From positions 1 to 46,036 of the forward strand of contig JAGOVF010000010.1 of the NCBI GenBank assembly GCA_018060885.1: a stretch of DNA of 46,036 nt, in the 5' to 3' direction. The position numbers were made by a program, and so were the translations under genes. Position 1 is the stretch's first letter, and each line of letters begins with the position of its first letter. This document shows positions 4,427-32,947 of the stretch, piece by piece. The DNA is from Oligoflexales bacterium (GTDB lineage Bacteria; Bdellovibrionota_B; Oligoflexia; Oligoflexales; JAGOVF01). The notes beneath the pieces were generated by a model. That model ran no database searches. It saw only the letters and a list, made by a program, of their open reading frames with translations, and was not told the DNA's origin.

Positions 4427-5101
4427 ATGATAATTAGAAGACCAATCTTGCAATACTTAACTGTTAGCAGTTTGTTATTTATGCTATTAAGCTGCAATTC
4501 GTCGAATGAGACAGCAAATTACGCCGTGAAATCTGAAGCAAAGCCCATTGGGCAATTTAAGGGCTACACTGCAATTGAGAATCATTTAAACTTAGCTATA
4601 ATGCCAGCTGACATTGAGATGTATAGGAAAATTAGACTTGAAGTCTATTTAGGTGATTCTCTCATGCTTCCCTTGCTTGGGAGCTATTCTGATGACGGAT
4701 CAAATTCTGAATATAGAAATGGCGCACCAACTCCGGTCAATACTCTGCTCTGGCAAAATGCGTTAAGTAAATTAGCAGAAAATCTTGCTCAATCTTGTGA
4801 AGCCGATAAAATTTATGCTCCAGGTGACTCCATTTATTTATCTAGAGACTACAACAAAAATTTTGCTTCAATATTAGCCGAAATTTGTATGTGGCCGCTT
4901 CCGAACGCAAAAAATGAGGATGCTTTACTAAATCTATGGCTAATCATCATGGGCTTCGAAGCTCCCGAGAGCGAGTATAAGGCTTGGCGAGATTTTTATC
5001 TCGATAAAAACTCTCCATTTGCAAATGCGGACGCACAGACCACTAGCACTTCGATGTTTAAAACAATGTTCTTAAATCCTTATTTTTTGTTAGAGCAATA
5101 A
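4427..5101 (+). CDS. Lipoprotein of unknown function in DUF1588/DUF1501 cassette
   Basis: A 224-residue protein with a clear lipoprotein signal (hydrophobic stretch ending LLFMLLSC, Cys at residue 23). The mature part is soluble and acidic, contains three Cys after the lipid-anchored one, and matches no family I recognise. It starts 12 bases after the upstream gene with AAAGGA before the ATG, and the DUF1501 gene follows 29 bases later, so the three are almost certainly co-transcribed. A role as a periplasmic partner of the two neighbours is inferred from position only. Confidence 0.7.
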   Translation: MIIRRPILQYLTVSSLLFMLLSCNSSNETANYAVKSEAKPIGQFKGYTAIENHLNLAIMPADIEMYRKIRLEVYLGDSLMLPLLGSYSDDGSNSEYRNGAPTPVNTLLWQNALSKLAENLAQSCEADKIYAPGDSIYLSRDYNKNFASILAEICMWPLPNAKNEDALLNLWLIIMGFEAPESEYKAWRDFYLDKNSPFANADAQTTSTSMFKTMFLNPYFLLEQ

Positions 5102-26200: not shown

Positions 26201-27919
26201 TTATACCGAACTAATCGTAGTAAGTTTTCTGTTAAGCCACTTTGTTTGAAATATTGTCATTACGGCATTTGCCAACATATAAATTACAAGCCCTGACGGC
26301 ATCGTAATCATAAGTACAGCAAAGAAAACCGGAATAAATTGCATGATCTTCTCTTGTGTTTTATCGAGGTTCATACTCGTTGGTGTCACTTTTTGTTGTA
26401 TGTAATAAACAATACCCAAAAGGATCGGCGTTACATAATAGGGGTCTTTTGAAGATAGGTCAGCAATCCACCCAAAAAATGGTGCGTGGCGCAATTCAAT
26501 CGCCGTAGATAGCATACGAAAAAAGGCGAACCATACAGGAATCTGTGGCAATATCGGCAAGCATCCCTTCATCGGATTCACTTTATTGACCGACATAAAC
26601 TTCATCAACTCTTGCTGCTGGCGCCTTGGGTCTTCCTTAAACTTTTCTCGAAGCGCCGTCATCTGAGGCTGCAACTCTTTCATTCGATGCATAGATACAG
26701 TTGCTTGCTTCTGTAAAGGATAGAATAAAATCTTGAGCAAAATCGTGATTAAAATAATCGCAATTCCATAATTTCCAACAATTCCGTTTATCCAAACCAA
26801 TGCAATCAACATCGGCTGCGCGATAAAATCAAAAATTCCAAGATCGAGCGTTGCTTCTAAGTTCTTATCGTGCTTTTTAAGAATGTTCAGAGCTTTAGGG
26901 CCAACATAGGTTTTGAAACTCAAGGTCGCCTTTTCGCCTGGAGCTATCATGCCCTGGCCTTGGGATAGGGTGATATCCATTTTACAAACATTCAAGGCTT
27001 CTTGGTGGCGCATTTGCACCGAGTAACTTAGATTGTCGCTAAAAGGGAGTAAAGCAGCTAAAAAGTAATGATAATCTACTCCGATGATTTGTATTTTTTG
27101 ATTGCTAACGCTGCTCGGTGCAGCATTTTCTTTGCACTCAGTATTAATATCTAAAAAGTTTAGCTCGCTTTCTAGCTTACTTACAAAACGTGTATGCTCA
27201 TAGCTTATTCCAGGAATAAAACCACCGCTGCCTTCTTGGTATTGATAAAGGCTATTTAATCCTATCAAGGCATTTAGATCACTGGGCTCTTTTCCAACAT
27301 TTTCATAGGTAACGTCGATTCGTCCACCATAACCTTGATCTTCAAAGCTAATGTCTTTCGTAATTTTAAATGCGCCTTCAAAGTGCCAAATTTTCAATGA
27401 ATGATCAGAACGCTCAGCATGGTAGAGAACTTGAGCCGCATTGCTAGGAGCTGTGGCTTGACTGCCAGATGTTGCCGAAATATGCACTGGAAAAGGCAAT
27501 AAATCTTTGGTTTTTTTGCTTTGCATATTTTCGCGGTAGTCTTTAAGGACAATTGAATCAATGCTGCTGGTTTTTTGGTTAAAGATATATTTTGCATTAA
27601 GTGTGTCAAAAGTCAGTTCTTTGGCATTTAACCAGTTGATAGTTTCGACTGGTGCGCTATTTACCGCAGAAGAATCTGTGGCTTTAGGCGCAAGTTGTTC
27701 GCCATTGGTGCTGTTTGTTGCAGGCGCTTGCAGCGCTGTGTCTGCTGCGCCAGATTGAGTCGTTTGATTAGCTTCTGGAGCTAGCTCAGCTTTTGGCTTT
27801 TCATTAAGTGACTTATAATAGTCGGGGTATTTATACTGCAAATAATAATTATAGCCAGACATCACAGCGATGGCTGCTACAATTGCCAAAATGGTAGATT
27901 TATTGATTTCGGTATTCAT
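26201..27919 (-). CDS. yidC: Membrane protein insertase YidC
   Basis: Inserts and folds inner-membrane proteins, alone or with SecYEG. About 572 residues from the ATG at 27919: N-terminal membrane anchor (ILAIVAAIAVMSGYNYYL), Ala/Thr/Asn-rich linker, large periplasmic domain (about 90-350), then the conserved five-helix core with the hairpin KQATVSMHRMKELQPQMTALREKFKEDPRRQQQELMKFM and IPVWFAFFRML. The ATG overlaps the yidD stop (ATGA), which fixes the start by coupling; a longer frame back to 28015 would run inside yidD. Confidence 0.95.
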   Translation of the reverse strand: MNTEINKSTILAIVAAIAVMSGYNYYLQYKYPDYYKSLNEKPKAELAPEANQTTQSGAADTALQAPATNSTNGEQLAPKATDSSAVNSAPVETINWLNAKELTFDTLNAKYIFNQKTSSIDSIVLKDYRENMQSKKTKDLLPFPVHISATSGSQATAPSNAAQVLYHAERSDHSLKIWHFEGAFKITKDISFEDQGYGGRIDVTYENVGKEPSDLNALIGLNSLYQYQEGSGGFIPGISYEHTRFVSKLESELNFLDINTECKENAAPSSVSNQKIQIIGVDYHYFLAALLPFSDNLSYSVQMRHQEALNVCKMDITLSQGQGMIAPGEKATLSFKTYVGPKALNILKKHDKNLEATLDLGIFDFIAQPMLIALVWINGIVGNYGIAIILITILLKILFYPLQKQATVSMHRMKELQPQMTALREKFKEDPRRQQQELMKFMSVNKVNPMKGCLPILPQIPVWFAFFRMLSTAIELRHAPFFGWIADLSSKDPYYVTPILLGIVYYIQQKVTPTSMNLDKTQEKIMQFIPVFFAVLMITMPSGLVIYMLANAVMTIFQTKWLNRKLTTISSV

Positions 27920-28134
27920 GGCAGGTCGACGCCCCCCGGATGCCAAGGATGACAATGAGACAAACGTAGTCCTGTTTTTACAGTCGCACGTACTATAGAG
28001 TATTTTTCCAAGCACTCTTTTGCATATTCAGAGCACGAAGGGTAAAATCGACAACGTGCACCCAAGATGGGTGAAAGTGCAGCTTGGTAGATTCGAATGA
28101 TAAATATAAATATTTTTTTTATGATACGTTCCAT
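27916..28134 (-). CDS. yidD: Membrane protein insertion efficiency factor YidD
   Basis: A 72-residue small protein that assists YidC-dependent insertion. It shows the family signature in full: IIRIYQAALSPILGARCRFYPSCSEYAKECLEKY and the tail LRLSHCHPWHPGGVD with the conserved Cys residues. It overlaps the rnpA 3' end by 16 bases and the yidC start by 4, so rnpA, yidD and yidC are read as one coupled unit. Confidence 0.95.
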   Translation of the reverse strand: MERIIKKIFIFIIRIYQAALSPILGARCRFYPSCSEYAKECLEKYSIVRATVKTGLRLSHCHPWHPGGVDLP

Positions 28135-28577
28135 CTTTTTATCAATATGCTAAGTGACTTTTCAAATTGCGAAAACATACTCTCGGTGGATGTCGGTTGC
28201 ACAACCGGACGAGATATTAAAACAAAATCCACACTGGACAACTGAGCGGCATACTTTCGCCAGGTCAGTCGAAACACCTCTCGCATTTGGCGTTTAACTC
28301 GATTACGGACAACAGAATTTCCTGTCTTTTTTGAAACAACTAAGCCAAGGCGCGGATATAAGCCAAGGCGCGGAAATGAGTCAAGCCGTGGCGAGCTCGG
28401 AATACTCTGCGCTGCAGCTTCTGCGAACTCAGATTTTGCAAGCTCTGACGGCGCCTTTCGGCTTTTCTTCGCGAGCAGTACAAATCCTGGCATTACAATT
28501 TTGTCATTTTGGTTAAAAACCGCTTTAAACTGCCCTGGATAGAGAAGCTTATGCTGTTTTTGAAGCGAGTATTCCAA
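28119..28577 (-). CDS. rnpA: Ribonuclease P protein component, with internal expansion
   Basis: Protein subunit of RNase P, which matures tRNA 5' ends. From the TTG at 28577 the protein is 152 residues: SLQKQHKLLYPGQFKAVF opening, the RNR signature NSVVRNRVKRQMREVFR, and FVLISRP near the end. The TTG at 28577 follows GGGGAA at normal spacing; a TTG at 28619 would overlap rpmH. Odd: between strands one and two there is an extra segment of about 30 residues (KKSRKAPSELAKSEFAEAAAQ onwards) ending in three 6-residue tandem repeats that copy the conserved PRLGL start of the next strand. Confidence 0.9.
   Translation of the reverse strand: MEYSLQKQHKLLYPGQFKAVFNQNDKIVMPGFVLLAKKSRKAPSELAKSEFAEAAAQSIPSSPRLDSFPRLGLYPRLGLVVSKKTGNSVVRNRVKRQMREVFRLTWRKYAAQLSSVDFVLISRPVVQPTSTESMFSQFEKSLSILIKRWNVS
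28341..28394 (-). repeat. Three 18-bp tandem repeats inside rnpA
   Basis: Two units (28341-28358 and 28359-28376) differ at one base, and a third (28377-28394) is diverged. They encode SPRLDS, FPRLGL and YPRLGL on the minus strand, in frame, so the repeat extends the protein in 6-residue steps without disrupting it. Confidence 0.8.
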
Positions 28578-28603
28578 AAGTTCCCCACAAATAAAAACTG
28601 GGG

Positions 28604-28753
28604 CTATTTTTGGTAACAAGTCACAGCGATTTGTTTGCGTCCTTTTGCACGTCTTGCAGAAAGCACTTTACGACCTCCAGGAGTCTCCATACGGGCTCTG
28701 AAACCGTGAGTGCGTACACGTCTTTTATTATGTGGTTGGAAGGTTCTTTTCAT
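28604..28753 (-). CDS. rpmH: 50S ribosomal protein L34
   Basis: A 49-residue basic protein beginning [18 protein letters not shown] and containing [18 protein letters not shown], the complete L34 signature. It is slightly longer than usual at the C-terminus (IAVTCYQK). The ATG at 28753 is preceded by GGGGAA. It is followed by rnpA, the standard arrangement. It was found by direct translation of the minus strand. Confidence 0.97.
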
Positions 28754-28959: not shown

Positions 28960-28988
28960 TTGACATTTTTTATAAATTTTAATATTAT
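28960..28988 (+). promoter_or_regulatory. Sigma70-type promoter for the four-repeat secreted protein
   Basis: TTGACA at 28960-28965 and TATTAT at 28983-28988 are separated by exactly 17 bases in a very AT-rich stretch, about 40 bases before the ATG at 29027. It is the clearest promoter in the window. The rest of 28754-29026 holds no ORF and no DnaA-box cluster. Confidence 0.7.
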
Positions 28989-29026: not shown

Positions 29027-30298
29027 ATGAAACTTCTACAAAAAACCAAATCAAAGCCTATCCAATTAATATTTGCTGCTCTTCTTTTGTCAGCGATTTT
29101 AGCTCCACGGCATTCCAGTGCACAAACCCTGCGCCTCGCAAATGTCATGGAGTTGTCTGAACAAGTTACTGTTTCCGGAAAAGAGCTGCAAATTTCATAT
29201 TTATTGCAGTGTGGAGAATCTTATTCTGGAACCGTCTTCGCACGCGGAGAAAAAGCTCAGCATTGGTTTGTCGGCGTCCTCATAAATAGCGACAATTTTC
29301 GTTGCACAAGTGCGGCAAAGCTAGCCTTCATAAAACATCCAATTATAATTTCAAAAGACACACTCAAAAAAGAATCAAACTCTCAAAAAATGCTTTTTTC
29401 TCCTATTCAAGAAACAAGCAATAGCCAAAGCTTAACTTGGACTAAGGCAAAGCATGTCAAAGTAAATTCTGAAACCAATAATGCGACACCGCGCTTTATA
29501 AGTTACGACAGTGGCTGCGGTGAGTTTGTGGGCGTGCTCATCAACCACCAAAGAAAGGATCGCCGATTTTATGGCGTCCTGGAGGGATTTAAGAAAAAAA
29601 ATAGCAGTCAATCTTCTTGTGTTAAAAAACGGGCAAAAACCTATCTGCCGCGTGAATTTGTTAGCCACGACTTCTGGCAAGGCGCAAAACTTAGAGCTCC
29701 CGTAAATGACGATGGTCAAAACGAACTTTCCTATAAATTAGTGCCGATTAGTTTAAAAAAAATCCGTTATAAAAATGCATCATCTACAAATAAACAAAGC
29801 ACTATTCAGGTTCCATATTTCCGCACATGTCGGCAAGCTCCTTTGGGCCTCATTGTCCAAGACAAAGGGAACAACAATTTTGCAATTGGGGTAGTTATCG
29901 CTGAAAAAAGTGGCCAAAAATGCCGACAGGGTCGTAAATTTGAATGGCAGACCATTATTAGCTCGATGCAGCTTCCGCAAAAGGCAAAGCTCACCTCAAT
30001 ACGAAATCTGCATAAAAATTCTAGTTTAAATATCCATGCTCCAAACATCGGCCCGCTAGGCAAAGCCGAAGATTTGCGCTTAAAAGTTGTAACAGATTCT
30101 TGTCAAAAACTACTCGGAACTCTGTATAGCGAGCAATCTAAATTTACTTCAATTGGGATTATTACTGAAACTGACACACAGTGTCAGATAAGTTCCACTC
30201 ATAACAATATCAAACTCATCGCTGAACAAAGACTCAGCTATCATCCGCCTTTTATTAAAGATTTTATTCAAAAAGACATTTATCCTTTCCAAATGTAA
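29027..30298 (+). CDS. Secreted protein with four Cys-pair repeats, unknown function
   Basis: A 423-residue protein, signal peptide about residues 1-32 (LIFAALLLSAILAPRHSSAQ). The mature part has exactly eight Cys in four pairs: C62/C93, C164/C198, C268/C299, C359/C386. Each pair brackets the same pattern: Cys, 5-9 residues, Gly plus hydrophobics, a polar turn, then F/I-x-G-V/I-hydrophobic, 6-12 residues, Cys (for example FVGVLINSDNFRC and IGIITETDTQC). So it is four copies of a roughly 100-residue module, each probably closed by one disulfide. No known family is recognised. It has its own strong promoter; alr follows 43 bases downstream. Confidence 0.75.
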   Translation: MKLLQKTKSKPIQLIFAALLLSAILAPRHSSAQTLRLANVMELSEQVTVSGKELQISYLLQCGESYSGTVFARGEKAQHWFVGVLINSDNFRCTSAAKLAFIKHPIIISKDTLKKESNSQKMLFSPIQETSNSQSLTWTKAKHVKVNSETNNATPRFISYDSGCGEFVGVLINHQRKDRRFYGVLEGFKKKNSSQSSCVKKRAKTYLPREFVSHDFWQGAKLRAPVNDDGQNELSYKLVPISLKKIRYKNASSTNKQSTIQVPYFRTCRQAPLGLIVQDKGNNNFAIGVVIAEKSGQKCRQGRKFEWQTIISSMQLPQKAKLTSIRNLHKNSSLNIHAPNIGPLGKAEDLRLKVVTDSCQKLLGTLYSEQSKFTSIGIITETDTQCQISSTHNNIKLIAEQRLSYHPPFIKDFIQKDIYPFQM

Positions 30299-30341: not shown

Positions 30342-31472
30342 ATGCCCATGCATACTTGGATAGAAATTGATGCTGTTGCTCTTTCACACAATGTCGAATC
30401 TTTTATTCGCTTGGTGGACAAAAAGCGTTTTGCTCCTGTACTCAAATCAAACGCTTATGGACATGGATTAAGCGAAGTTTATAGTATAATACAAGATCAC
30501 CAACTCGAGTGGATCTGTGTCAATTATCTCTCAGAAGCGCAAGTGCTGCGAAAATTAGGTTTCAAGAATAAAATACTTATAGTCGGCCCGACAAAACGAG
30601 AAGAATTTGAAGTTGCTGCCGAGATCAATGCAGCTGTTTTTGTAAATAGCTGGGAGCATTTGTATAGCATAGAGGCTCTTAAAAGAAAGCCAGACCTTCA
30701 TATTAAAATAGATACAGGAATGTCGCGGCAAGGATTTTTAGCTGACGAGTTGCCTACGCTTTTAGATTATTTTAAAAAGAAGAAACTATCACCTTCTGGG
30801 CTTGCTAGTCATTTTTCTAACGTCGAAGATGTTTCGGATTCGGAATTTGCCTCTCTACAATTAACTCGGCTTAAACAAGCACAATCCGCTTTTGAAACTC
30901 AAGGTTTTCACACCCTAAATCACATCGCATCGAGCGCATCAACTCTCATCATGAACGAATCTCGACTAGACCTTTGCCGGGTCGGAATTTCTCTATATGG
31001 ATTATGGCCATCGAAATTAACGCACCTATCACACTATAAATCCTCTTCTGACACTATCGATCTCAAACCGATTCTATCGTGGCAGACTAAAATATCACAA
31101 ATTAAGAAAGTAAAAAAAAATGGCTTTATCGGCTACGGCTGTAGCTATCAAGCCAATCGCGACATGCTGGTCGCTGTTTTGCCGGTCGGTTATAATGAAG
31201 GTTATAGCCGCTTAGCGAGCCAAAATAACGCCGTCGTTTTAATTGACGACAATCGTTGTCCTATCGTCGGGCGAATATGTATGAATATGATGATGGTGGA
31301 TGTTTCGCATGTTGCTAATGCGAAAATTGATATGCAAACAACCTTAATTGGCCAAAACGGCTCACAAAATATAAGTGCGGAAGAATTTTCCTCTTGGCAT
31401 GAGACTATTCACTATGAAGCTCTTACTAGGTTGCATGAAAAAATTCCGCGCATAGTCAGAAATAGAAGATAA
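30342..31472 (+). CDS. alr: Alanine racemase
   Basis: PLP enzyme making D-alanine for peptidoglycan. The 376 residues include the PLP-lysine motif VLKSNAYGHG (K35), KIDTGMSRQGF, SSASTLIM and the second-domain tyrosine motif GYGCSYQANRD (catalytic Tyr region near 265), then GRICMNMMMVDV. Length is normal. Two in-frame ATGs (30342 and 30348) are both possible starts. It follows the four-repeat protein and may share its transcript. Confidence 0.95.
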   Translation: MPMHTWIEIDAVALSHNVESFIRLVDKKRFAPVLKSNAYGHGLSEVYSIIQDHQLEWICVNYLSEAQVLRKLGFKNKILIVGPTKREEFEVAAEINAAVFVNSWEHLYSIEALKRKPDLHIKIDTGMSRQGFLADELPTLLDYFKKKKLSPSGLASHFSNVEDVSDSEFASLQLTRLKQAQSAFETQGFHTLNHIASSASTLIMNESRLDLCRVGISLYGLWPSKLTHLSHYKSSSDTIDLKPILSWQTKISQIKKVKKNGFIGYGCSYQANRDMLVAVLPVGYNEGYSRLASQNNAVVLIDDNRCPIVGRICMNMMMVDVSHVANAKIDMQTTLIGQNGSQNISAEEFSSWHETIHYEALTRLHEKIPRIVRNRR

Positions 31473-31477
31473 AATCT

Positions 31478-31903
31478 ATGCAAGATCAAATCTTAGAAAA
31501 ACAAGCCGACTATATTGACCCTGCGCAGCTTTGCCAAATTGAACTGCAAGTGCCTGATATTCACAAAGCACTAGATTTTTATTGGCGCGCTTTTGGCTGG
31601 AAAAAGTCCCCTAGCGAGCTTTTTCCTTATCACATTTTAGACGTTTCTAGTACTTGCCCTTATGGAATTGCATTAATTGAAAATCCCAACATGACGCTCA
31701 AAGATGCAAATAAGCGGCTAATATTGTTTTTTCGAGTTGAAAATTTGACTCAGTGCAGTGAAAGAATTATTGAGCATGGCGGACGAATAGTCAGAGAAAA
31801 ACAGTTTATCCCAGGTTATGGAACAACTAACGTAGCTGAAGATCCATGCGGCCATCGCTGGGGATTTTTTGAAGCAAAGAAGGCTGAAGTATTTAAACCA
31901 TAA
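31478..31903 (+). CDS. VOC (glyoxalase/bleomycin-resistance) family protein
   Basis: A 141-residue single-domain vicinal-oxygen-chelate protein: QIELQVPDIHKALDFYWRAFGWK opens the first beta-alpha-beta-beta-beta unit, and LILFFRVENLTQCSERIIEHGGRIV and AEDPCGHRWGFFEAK the second. The last motif carries the usual DP-x-G. Substrate unknown; such proteins may be lyases, dioxygenases or binding proteins. It starts five bases after the alr stop, hence likely co-transcribed. Confidence 0.8.
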   Translation: MQDQILEKQADYIDPAQLCQIELQVPDIHKALDFYWRAFGWKKSPSELFPYHILDVSSTCPYGIALIENPNMTLKDANKRLILFFRVENLTQCSERIIEHGGRIVREKQFIPGYGTTNVAEDPCGHRWGFFEAKKAEVFKP

Positions 31904-31915
31904 CAACGTTTGTTC

Positions 31916-32947
31916 TTATTCGTTAAAATTCTGTACGTGTAAGCGCCAATGTCTATTTAAAGAGCTTTGCAAATACATGGCCGCTAGGGGCGGAAATAAA
32001 GCTAAAAAAAACACCAGGTAGACCGTTGTCTTTTCATAGCCATTTTGGCGCTCAAGAATGCGGATTTGGCGCGCTAAACTCATAAAATTAAACACACTCA
32101 ATGGCGGCAAGAGCCCGAATAAAATTTGGTGCCAAGAAAGTTTTCGCCATTGGGCAGATTTATGCCAAGCTACTTCGTTTTGCGCATCGCTATACCAAAG
32201 CAGTATGTTGCAGCCAAGAGTTAGAAAAAACTTAATAATGCTTCCCAATCCGAAGGTTCTTAGAACCCCTAAACGCAATCTACCCCGTAAGGTCAAATAA
32301 CTGGGCGCCACGATCTGTGGGTTTAATTTAATTGGCGCGAAAACCACTTTTTCTTGCGGAGCAACTTCTGCTGATGGCTCATTGTAACTTACATCAAGCT
32401 CTGTATGTGCTTTTGCTGTGTTTTTTGTTCTTACAATAAAATCGCTGGGAAAATCTTCGAGATCTAAGCGAACCTGAGGCAGATCCTCAAATAAAATTGG
32501 CTTTTTATTTACAACTATTTGATTTTTTGTTTTTTCGAAATCCTGTGACGCATTTTGATTCAAATGATTATTGCTTTTATTTTGTTCTGGCAAGGCTGCT
32601 TTTTGCGCTAAATCTGGCTCTACCACAGCACCAAGTCTTACAAGTCTTTCAATACTACTTTCGACACTTGACTTAAATTCGAAAATTGCTTGATGGGTCT
32701 CGACTTCGTATTCTGCGACTTTGCGTTTAATGACCATAGCATCAGGGTCTATTTCTTTTTTTAAATGTATTTGCGACGGCGCAGGAGTTTGTTGTTCGAA
32801 TTCAGTAGATTTTTTAAAAGCTTGTTTGAGTTCGACGGGGCCTTCGATTTTGCCATCTTTAAACGAAAAAAAACCTTGCATACGTAATCGATTAGCAGTT
32901 TTTTCTTGTTGCTCGAGCGCATTATCAGACCGATCTCTGACTTTCAT
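31916..32947 (-). CDS. Membrane protein with long cytoplasmic N-terminus, DUF4234-like C-terminus
   Basis: 343 residues. Residues 1-220 are polar and partly helical (VAEYEVETHQAIFEFKSSVESSIERLVRLG) with no signal, so likely cytoplasmic. Residues 230-343 hold three hydrophobic segments (IIKFFLTLGCNILLWY, HQILFGLLPPLSVFNFM, TTVYLVFFLALFPPLAAMYL). The opening of that part resembles the DUF4234 pattern of a helix with TLG-x-x-x-LW-Y. AAAGGAAC precedes the ATG. Function unknown. It is convergent with the VOC gene (12-base gap) and divergent from the aldehyde-dehydrogenase-like gene. Confidence 0.6.
   Translation of the reverse strand: MKVRDRSDNALEQQEKTANRLRMQGFFSFKDGKIEGPVELKQAFKKSTEFEQQTPAPSQIHLKKEIDPDAMVIKRKVAEYEVETHQAIFEFKSSVESSIERLVRLGAVVEPDLAQKAALPEQNKSNNHLNQNASQDFEKTKNQIVVNKKPILFEDLPQVRLDLEDFPSDFIVRTKNTAKAHTELDVSYNEPSAEVAPQEKVVFAPIKLNPQIVAPSYLTLRGRLRLGVLRTFGLGSIIKFFLTLGCNILLWYSDAQNEVAWHKSAQWRKLSWHQILFGLLPPLSVFNFMSLARQIRILERQNGYEKTTVYLVFFLALFPPLAAMYLQSSLNRHWRLHVQNFNE

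Follow-up and report, generated by a model that had tools for sequence, protein, structure and literature searches.

A lineage-specific family of predicted exported proteins built of four homologous modules and encoded beside alr in Oligoflexales

We analyzed a 46,036-nucleotide stretch of DNA (here called the window) from an Oligoflexales bacterium, in which a gene for a four-repeat protein lies between the divergently transcribed rnpA and yidC genes and alr, the gene for alanine racemase (Table 1). The open reading frame and the secretion signal given in a preliminary description of this DNA were both confirmed, with 423 codons from the ATG and a plain Sec signal peptide. By sequence inspection, the signal peptide is laid out as KLLQKTKSKP / IQLIFAALLLSAILA / PRHSSA-QT, and an N-terminal hydrophobic stretch is present in all relatives with clear starts. 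The pI values of the mature proteins range from 7.2 to 10.5 across the family and mostly exceed 9. Export of the protein is well supported. Besides, a 343-amino-acid protein is encoded on the minus strand after the alr-glyoxalase pair (31916-32947), for which no Pfam match was found up to an E value of 1.

Table 1. Features at the locus of the four-repeat gene (window coordinates)
Feature	Position	Strand	Remarks
yidC	26201-28015	-	Beyond rnpA
rnpA reading frame	28119..28619	-	Divergent neighbour in family loci; true start possibly further in
Sigma-70-type promoter, TTGACA-17-TATTAT	28960..28988	+	11/12 match; ends 38 bp before start codon
Four-repeat gene	29027..30298	+	ATG start; encodes 423 aa; predicted exported protein; mature pI ~9.7
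Sec signal peptide, predicted	29027..29122	+	Residues 1-32; predicted cleavage after SSA; by sequence inspection
Module 1	29126..29392	+	Residues 34-122; Cys62-Cys93
Module 2	29393..29710	+	Residues 123-228; Cys164-Cys198
Module 3	29711..29992	+	Residues 229-322; Cys268-Cys299; most conserved module
Module 4	29993..30295	+	Residues 323-423; Cys359-Cys386
alr, alanine racemase	30342..31472	+	43 bp downstream of four-repeat gene; probable operon partner
Glyoxalase-like protein	31478..31903	+	Follows alr; likewise in several relatives

The repeat is weak in the window sequence alone, where pairwise shuffles of the modules gave p values of 0.01 to 0.69. With profiles built from 26 family members, the six module pairs gave hhalign profile-profile scores of 41.9, 41.4, 38.0, 40.1, 38.5, and 26.9, against a maximum of 13.6 to 17.1 per pair over 60 column shuffles and scores of 8 to 14 with reversed columns. 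Furthermore, a 79-position profile of a single module picked up each of the four modules of the window gene but matched no other gene in the genome of the window. The closest module in another genome bore the same module number in 87 of 96 cases, indicating that the duplications are older than the spread of the family. Thus, the fourfold repeat of a module of about 100 residues that had been proposed earlier holds for all six pairs, and by these profiles the protein is made up of four homologous modules, unambiguously so at the family level. That even cysteine spacing and a beta-type sequence arose by chance, with no true repeat, would fit the single sequence, in which module pairs barely exceed shuffles, but the family profiles, the module profile search, the cysteine pairing, and two structure predictions agree with one another, and no column shuffle reached the module-pair scores. 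We therefore rejected a chance repeat, the probability of which is negligible. Module 3 carries the motif R-x-C-N-E-A-P-[IVL]-G in the relatives, which reads RTCRQAPLG in the window protein.

The eight cysteines of the mature protein stand exactly at the positions listed in the preliminary description, in four pairs with spacings of 31, 34, 31, and 27. Among the 26 members, the number of cysteines in a mature module is either two or zero; modules with one or three do not occur. Pair 2 is jointly absent in two members (L008 in genome G005 and L091 in G011), and pair 4 is jointly absent in four genomes of genus g15; one locus in this census (L041) is truncated at the end of its contig. Intramodule disulfides predict that both cysteines of a pair are lost together, and such losses support one disulfide per module. 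Together with the two-or-none rule, these losses uphold the earlier proposal of one probable disulfide in each module, for which the sequences provide strong indirect evidence. We also found a VKOR-family protein in the genome of the window (G000:C5:47452-47847, L109; frame of about 424 residues; E value, 1.4e-24) and in four other genomes (G004, G008, G009, and G018), and DsbB was not detectable in the genome of the window. This suggests periplasmic oxidation of the VKOR type in this bacterium.

AlphaFold modeling gave moderate confidence for the window protein, predicted from eleven alignment rows (pLDDT, 67; pTM, 0.48), and higher values for the homologue L047 (pLDDT, 81; pTM, 0.74). Both models show four copies of a beta unit with five to six predicted strands, arranged as a long strand, a strand, the first cysteine, two strands, the second cysteine, and a strand; units one to three of the L047 model close with an extra short strand. 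The predicted structures, which had been suggested as a check for four equal units, thus agree with a repeated unit in both proteins. Foldseek returned no match at an E value of 1e-3 or below against the PDB for either model, or against BFVD for the homologue model, and sequence profiles of the whole protein and of the modules matched no PDB chain up to an E value of 10. The modeled modules, with five main strands each, resemble OB-fold proteins in being tandem five-stranded beta units, and OB-fold names (LEF-3, HIN domains, RPA, RPB8, and ModE) appear low in the Foldseek lists, but these entries are insignificant (no match at an E value of 1e-3 or below, probability no higher than about 0.13, TM about 0.1), and we claim no membership. 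Beta-propellers, with semaphorin, glycoside phosphorylases, and DDB1 as Foldseek leads, share the repeated antiparallel beta meanders, but the scores are likewise insignificant (TM about 0.1), and a module of about 95 residues with five to six strands differs from a propeller blade of about 45 residues with four. These leads, as well as the immunoglobulins, were insignificant and were not used for assignment.

Searches against named families gave a similar picture. Neither whole proteins nor single modules reached the curated cutoffs of Pfam-A or NCBIfam, in which we saw only isolated subthreshold matches, none of them common to the members. The Pfam near-matches GH97_C, RFX, and NFRKB winged helix were dropped, as they concerned single members and were below cutoff or unshared. 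PHROGs and PADLOC profiles gave no significant match, and our literature search found no paper on the four-module family. Thus, the earlier statement that the module could not be matched to a known family holds across Pfam, NCBIfam, PHROGs, PADLOC, the PDB (by sequence and by fold), and BFVD. Tandem disulfide-stapled domains are a familiar build among exported proteins, and the four-module family is new in content, not in kind.

Of the 43 genomes of the same (Oligoflexales-type) order, 29 carry a single-copy relative, and no copy was detected in the other 14. Whole-genome searches accounted for 28 of the 29, and the last, a distant member, was located at the same site in genome G011 (L091:1561-2796; profile E value, 4e-17). 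No copy was found by whole-genome search in the remaining 15 genomes of the class, no relative was found on viral contigs or plasmids, and a contig scan for close relatives with the window protein alone found none. As far as tested, the family is restricted to one order of bacteria. The named relatives, from a contig scan with a closer alignment set, are metagenome-assembled genomes (MAGs) labeled Pseudobacteriovorax, Oligoflexaceae, or unclassified proteobacteria, which suggests that the order is Oligoflexales or a near neighbor. This unnamed orthologous family (loci L002-L013, L026-L041, L044-L053, and L091) resembles the window protein in length range, in gene order, and in having a signal peptide, four modules, and cysteine pairs, but differs in its low identity to that protein (about 15 to 21%, mostly 17 to 21%, compared with about 48% for alr with several of the same genomes) and in the loss of one cysteine pair in some members. 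The window gene itself has the signal peptide, the four modules, a cysteine pair in each, and the rnpA-alr site that mark the family. On an Alr tree labeled for presence, parsimony required four changes with long branches; the gene may have had one origin followed by losses. We consider this a real, undescribed, lineage-specific family of exported proteins without a recognised fold.

The site of the gene is conserved. It is followed by alr on the same strand with a gap of 7 to 115 bp in 22 genomes, and rnpA-yidC lies divergently beside it in nearly all family loci. Other sequence separates it from alr in two genomes (G030 and G041), and in two more (G003 and G011) alr sits on a different contig and yidC still adjoins the gene. 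Among the 14 genomes without the gene, eight have alr directly next to rnpA, which indicates that a fixed site between rnpA and alr either acquired the gene or lost it. Although the preliminary description regarded the site as an unexpected place for an accessory secreted gene, the rnpA-yidC/alr site proved to be its usual home in most carrier genomes. As to the other genes around these loci, the Pseudobacteriovorax MAG G030 has two genes between the four-repeat gene and alr (L002:235-1400), one of which resembles the SanA/YdcF envelope family by eye. In several genomes of the order, whether or not they carry the four-repeat gene, the neighborhood of alr or rnpA also encodes a conserved protein of about 246 to 257 amino acids (L082:2966-3706, L085:3684-4424, L093:2616-3362, and L096:838-1611); it has the shared stretch NPK[AS][IL][RK]EDR..AIE[FY] and looks HEAT-like.

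The promoter ahead of the gene, as described earlier, was borne out, but it is only jointly the clearest in the window: a second site, at 4575, likewise matches at 11 of 12 positions but has a 16-nucleotide spacer. We surveyed the best sigma-70-like match in the 200 bp upstream of 17 family members. In nine, this site has a 17-nucleotide spacer and ends 27 to 49 bp before the start; these nine score 9 to 11 of 12 and are weak compared with shuffles (p values of 0.003 to 0.27). Given the conserved arrangement with alr, the promoter at 28960-28988 is best read as that of an operon, and the gene layout suggests that the four-repeat gene and alr are probably cotranscribed from it.

Conservation across the family bears on function. 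Invariant or nearly invariant positions among the 26 members are almost only cysteine, glycine, alanine, and proline, and no acidic, basic, hydroxyl, or histidine residue is invariant. The lack of an invariant polar residue favors a nonenzymatic binding or scaffold protein of the envelope. We propose that one beta module was quadrupled in the ancient past, that each copy would be stapled by its own disulfide, and that the protein is exported, probably to the periplasm. The strong sigma-70 promoter would drive its gene together with alr, so that an envelope protein would be made alongside the enzyme supplying D-alanine, possibly in connection with wall synthesis, and the basic, multivalent, nonenzymatic product might bind or scaffold a wall or membrane component. 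To the whole of this reading, a quadruplicated, disulfide-stapled periplasmic binding or scaffold protein in a probable alr operon, we give a probability of roughly 0.5. Against it, no copy was detected in 14 of 43 genomes, eight of which have alr directly next to rnpA, so that alr function and wall synthesis in general can do without the gene. The four genomes in which alr lies elsewhere (G003 and G011) or beyond other sequence (G030 and G041) and the moderate model of the window protein also count against it. A more specific proposal, in which a new small beta fold forms a quadruplicated periplasmic scaffold coupled to D-alanine synthesis as an Oligoflexales-specific envelope component, is unlikely to hold in full.

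The main alternative is a secreted effector, inhibitor, or adhesin that acts outside the cell, such as a multiheaded inhibitor of small disulfide domains or a protein binding prey or surfaces, with the adjacency to alr being historical. A signal peptide followed by tandem disulfide-stapled domains would suit such a protein, as would the patchy presence and the very fast divergence, with about 20% identity between genera compared with about 48% for alr. However, the gene is single copy, occupies one chromosomal site only a short distance from alr, was not seen on plasmids or viral contigs, has no PADLOC or PHROGs match, and shows no outer-membrane export signature; hence, we regard this alternative as rather improbable.

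An enzyme of unrecognised kind would be compatible with the length and multidomain build and with the conserved stretch in module 3, but the 26 members offer none of the invariant polar residues considered above, and the window protein deviates at the N and E of that motif (CRQAPLG). This makes an enzyme quite improbable, although the protein may still be an unusual enzyme or inhibitor without invariant polar residues. A shade more doubtful is an envelope factor tied to the yidC-rnpA-rpmH cluster, for example, one that helps insert membrane proteins from the periplasmic side. The divergent rnpA-yidC pair does accompany nearly all family loci, and yidC is present even where alr is elsewhere (G003 and G011), but the pair lies on the opposite strand and so in a separate transcript, yidC itself is universal, and the eight genomes that keep rnpA-alr without the gene indicate that this adjacency is independent of it.

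The four-repeat family overturns nothing established. It adds an unannotated exported family with a clear internal repeat, no recognised fold, and a probable operon with a gene of cell wall precursor supply, and its pairwise loss of cysteines provides a tidy natural case of the evolution of disulfide-stapled repeats. Should cotranscription with alr and a periplasmic location both prove correct, the family would offer a concrete entry to the envelope biology of a little-studied order.
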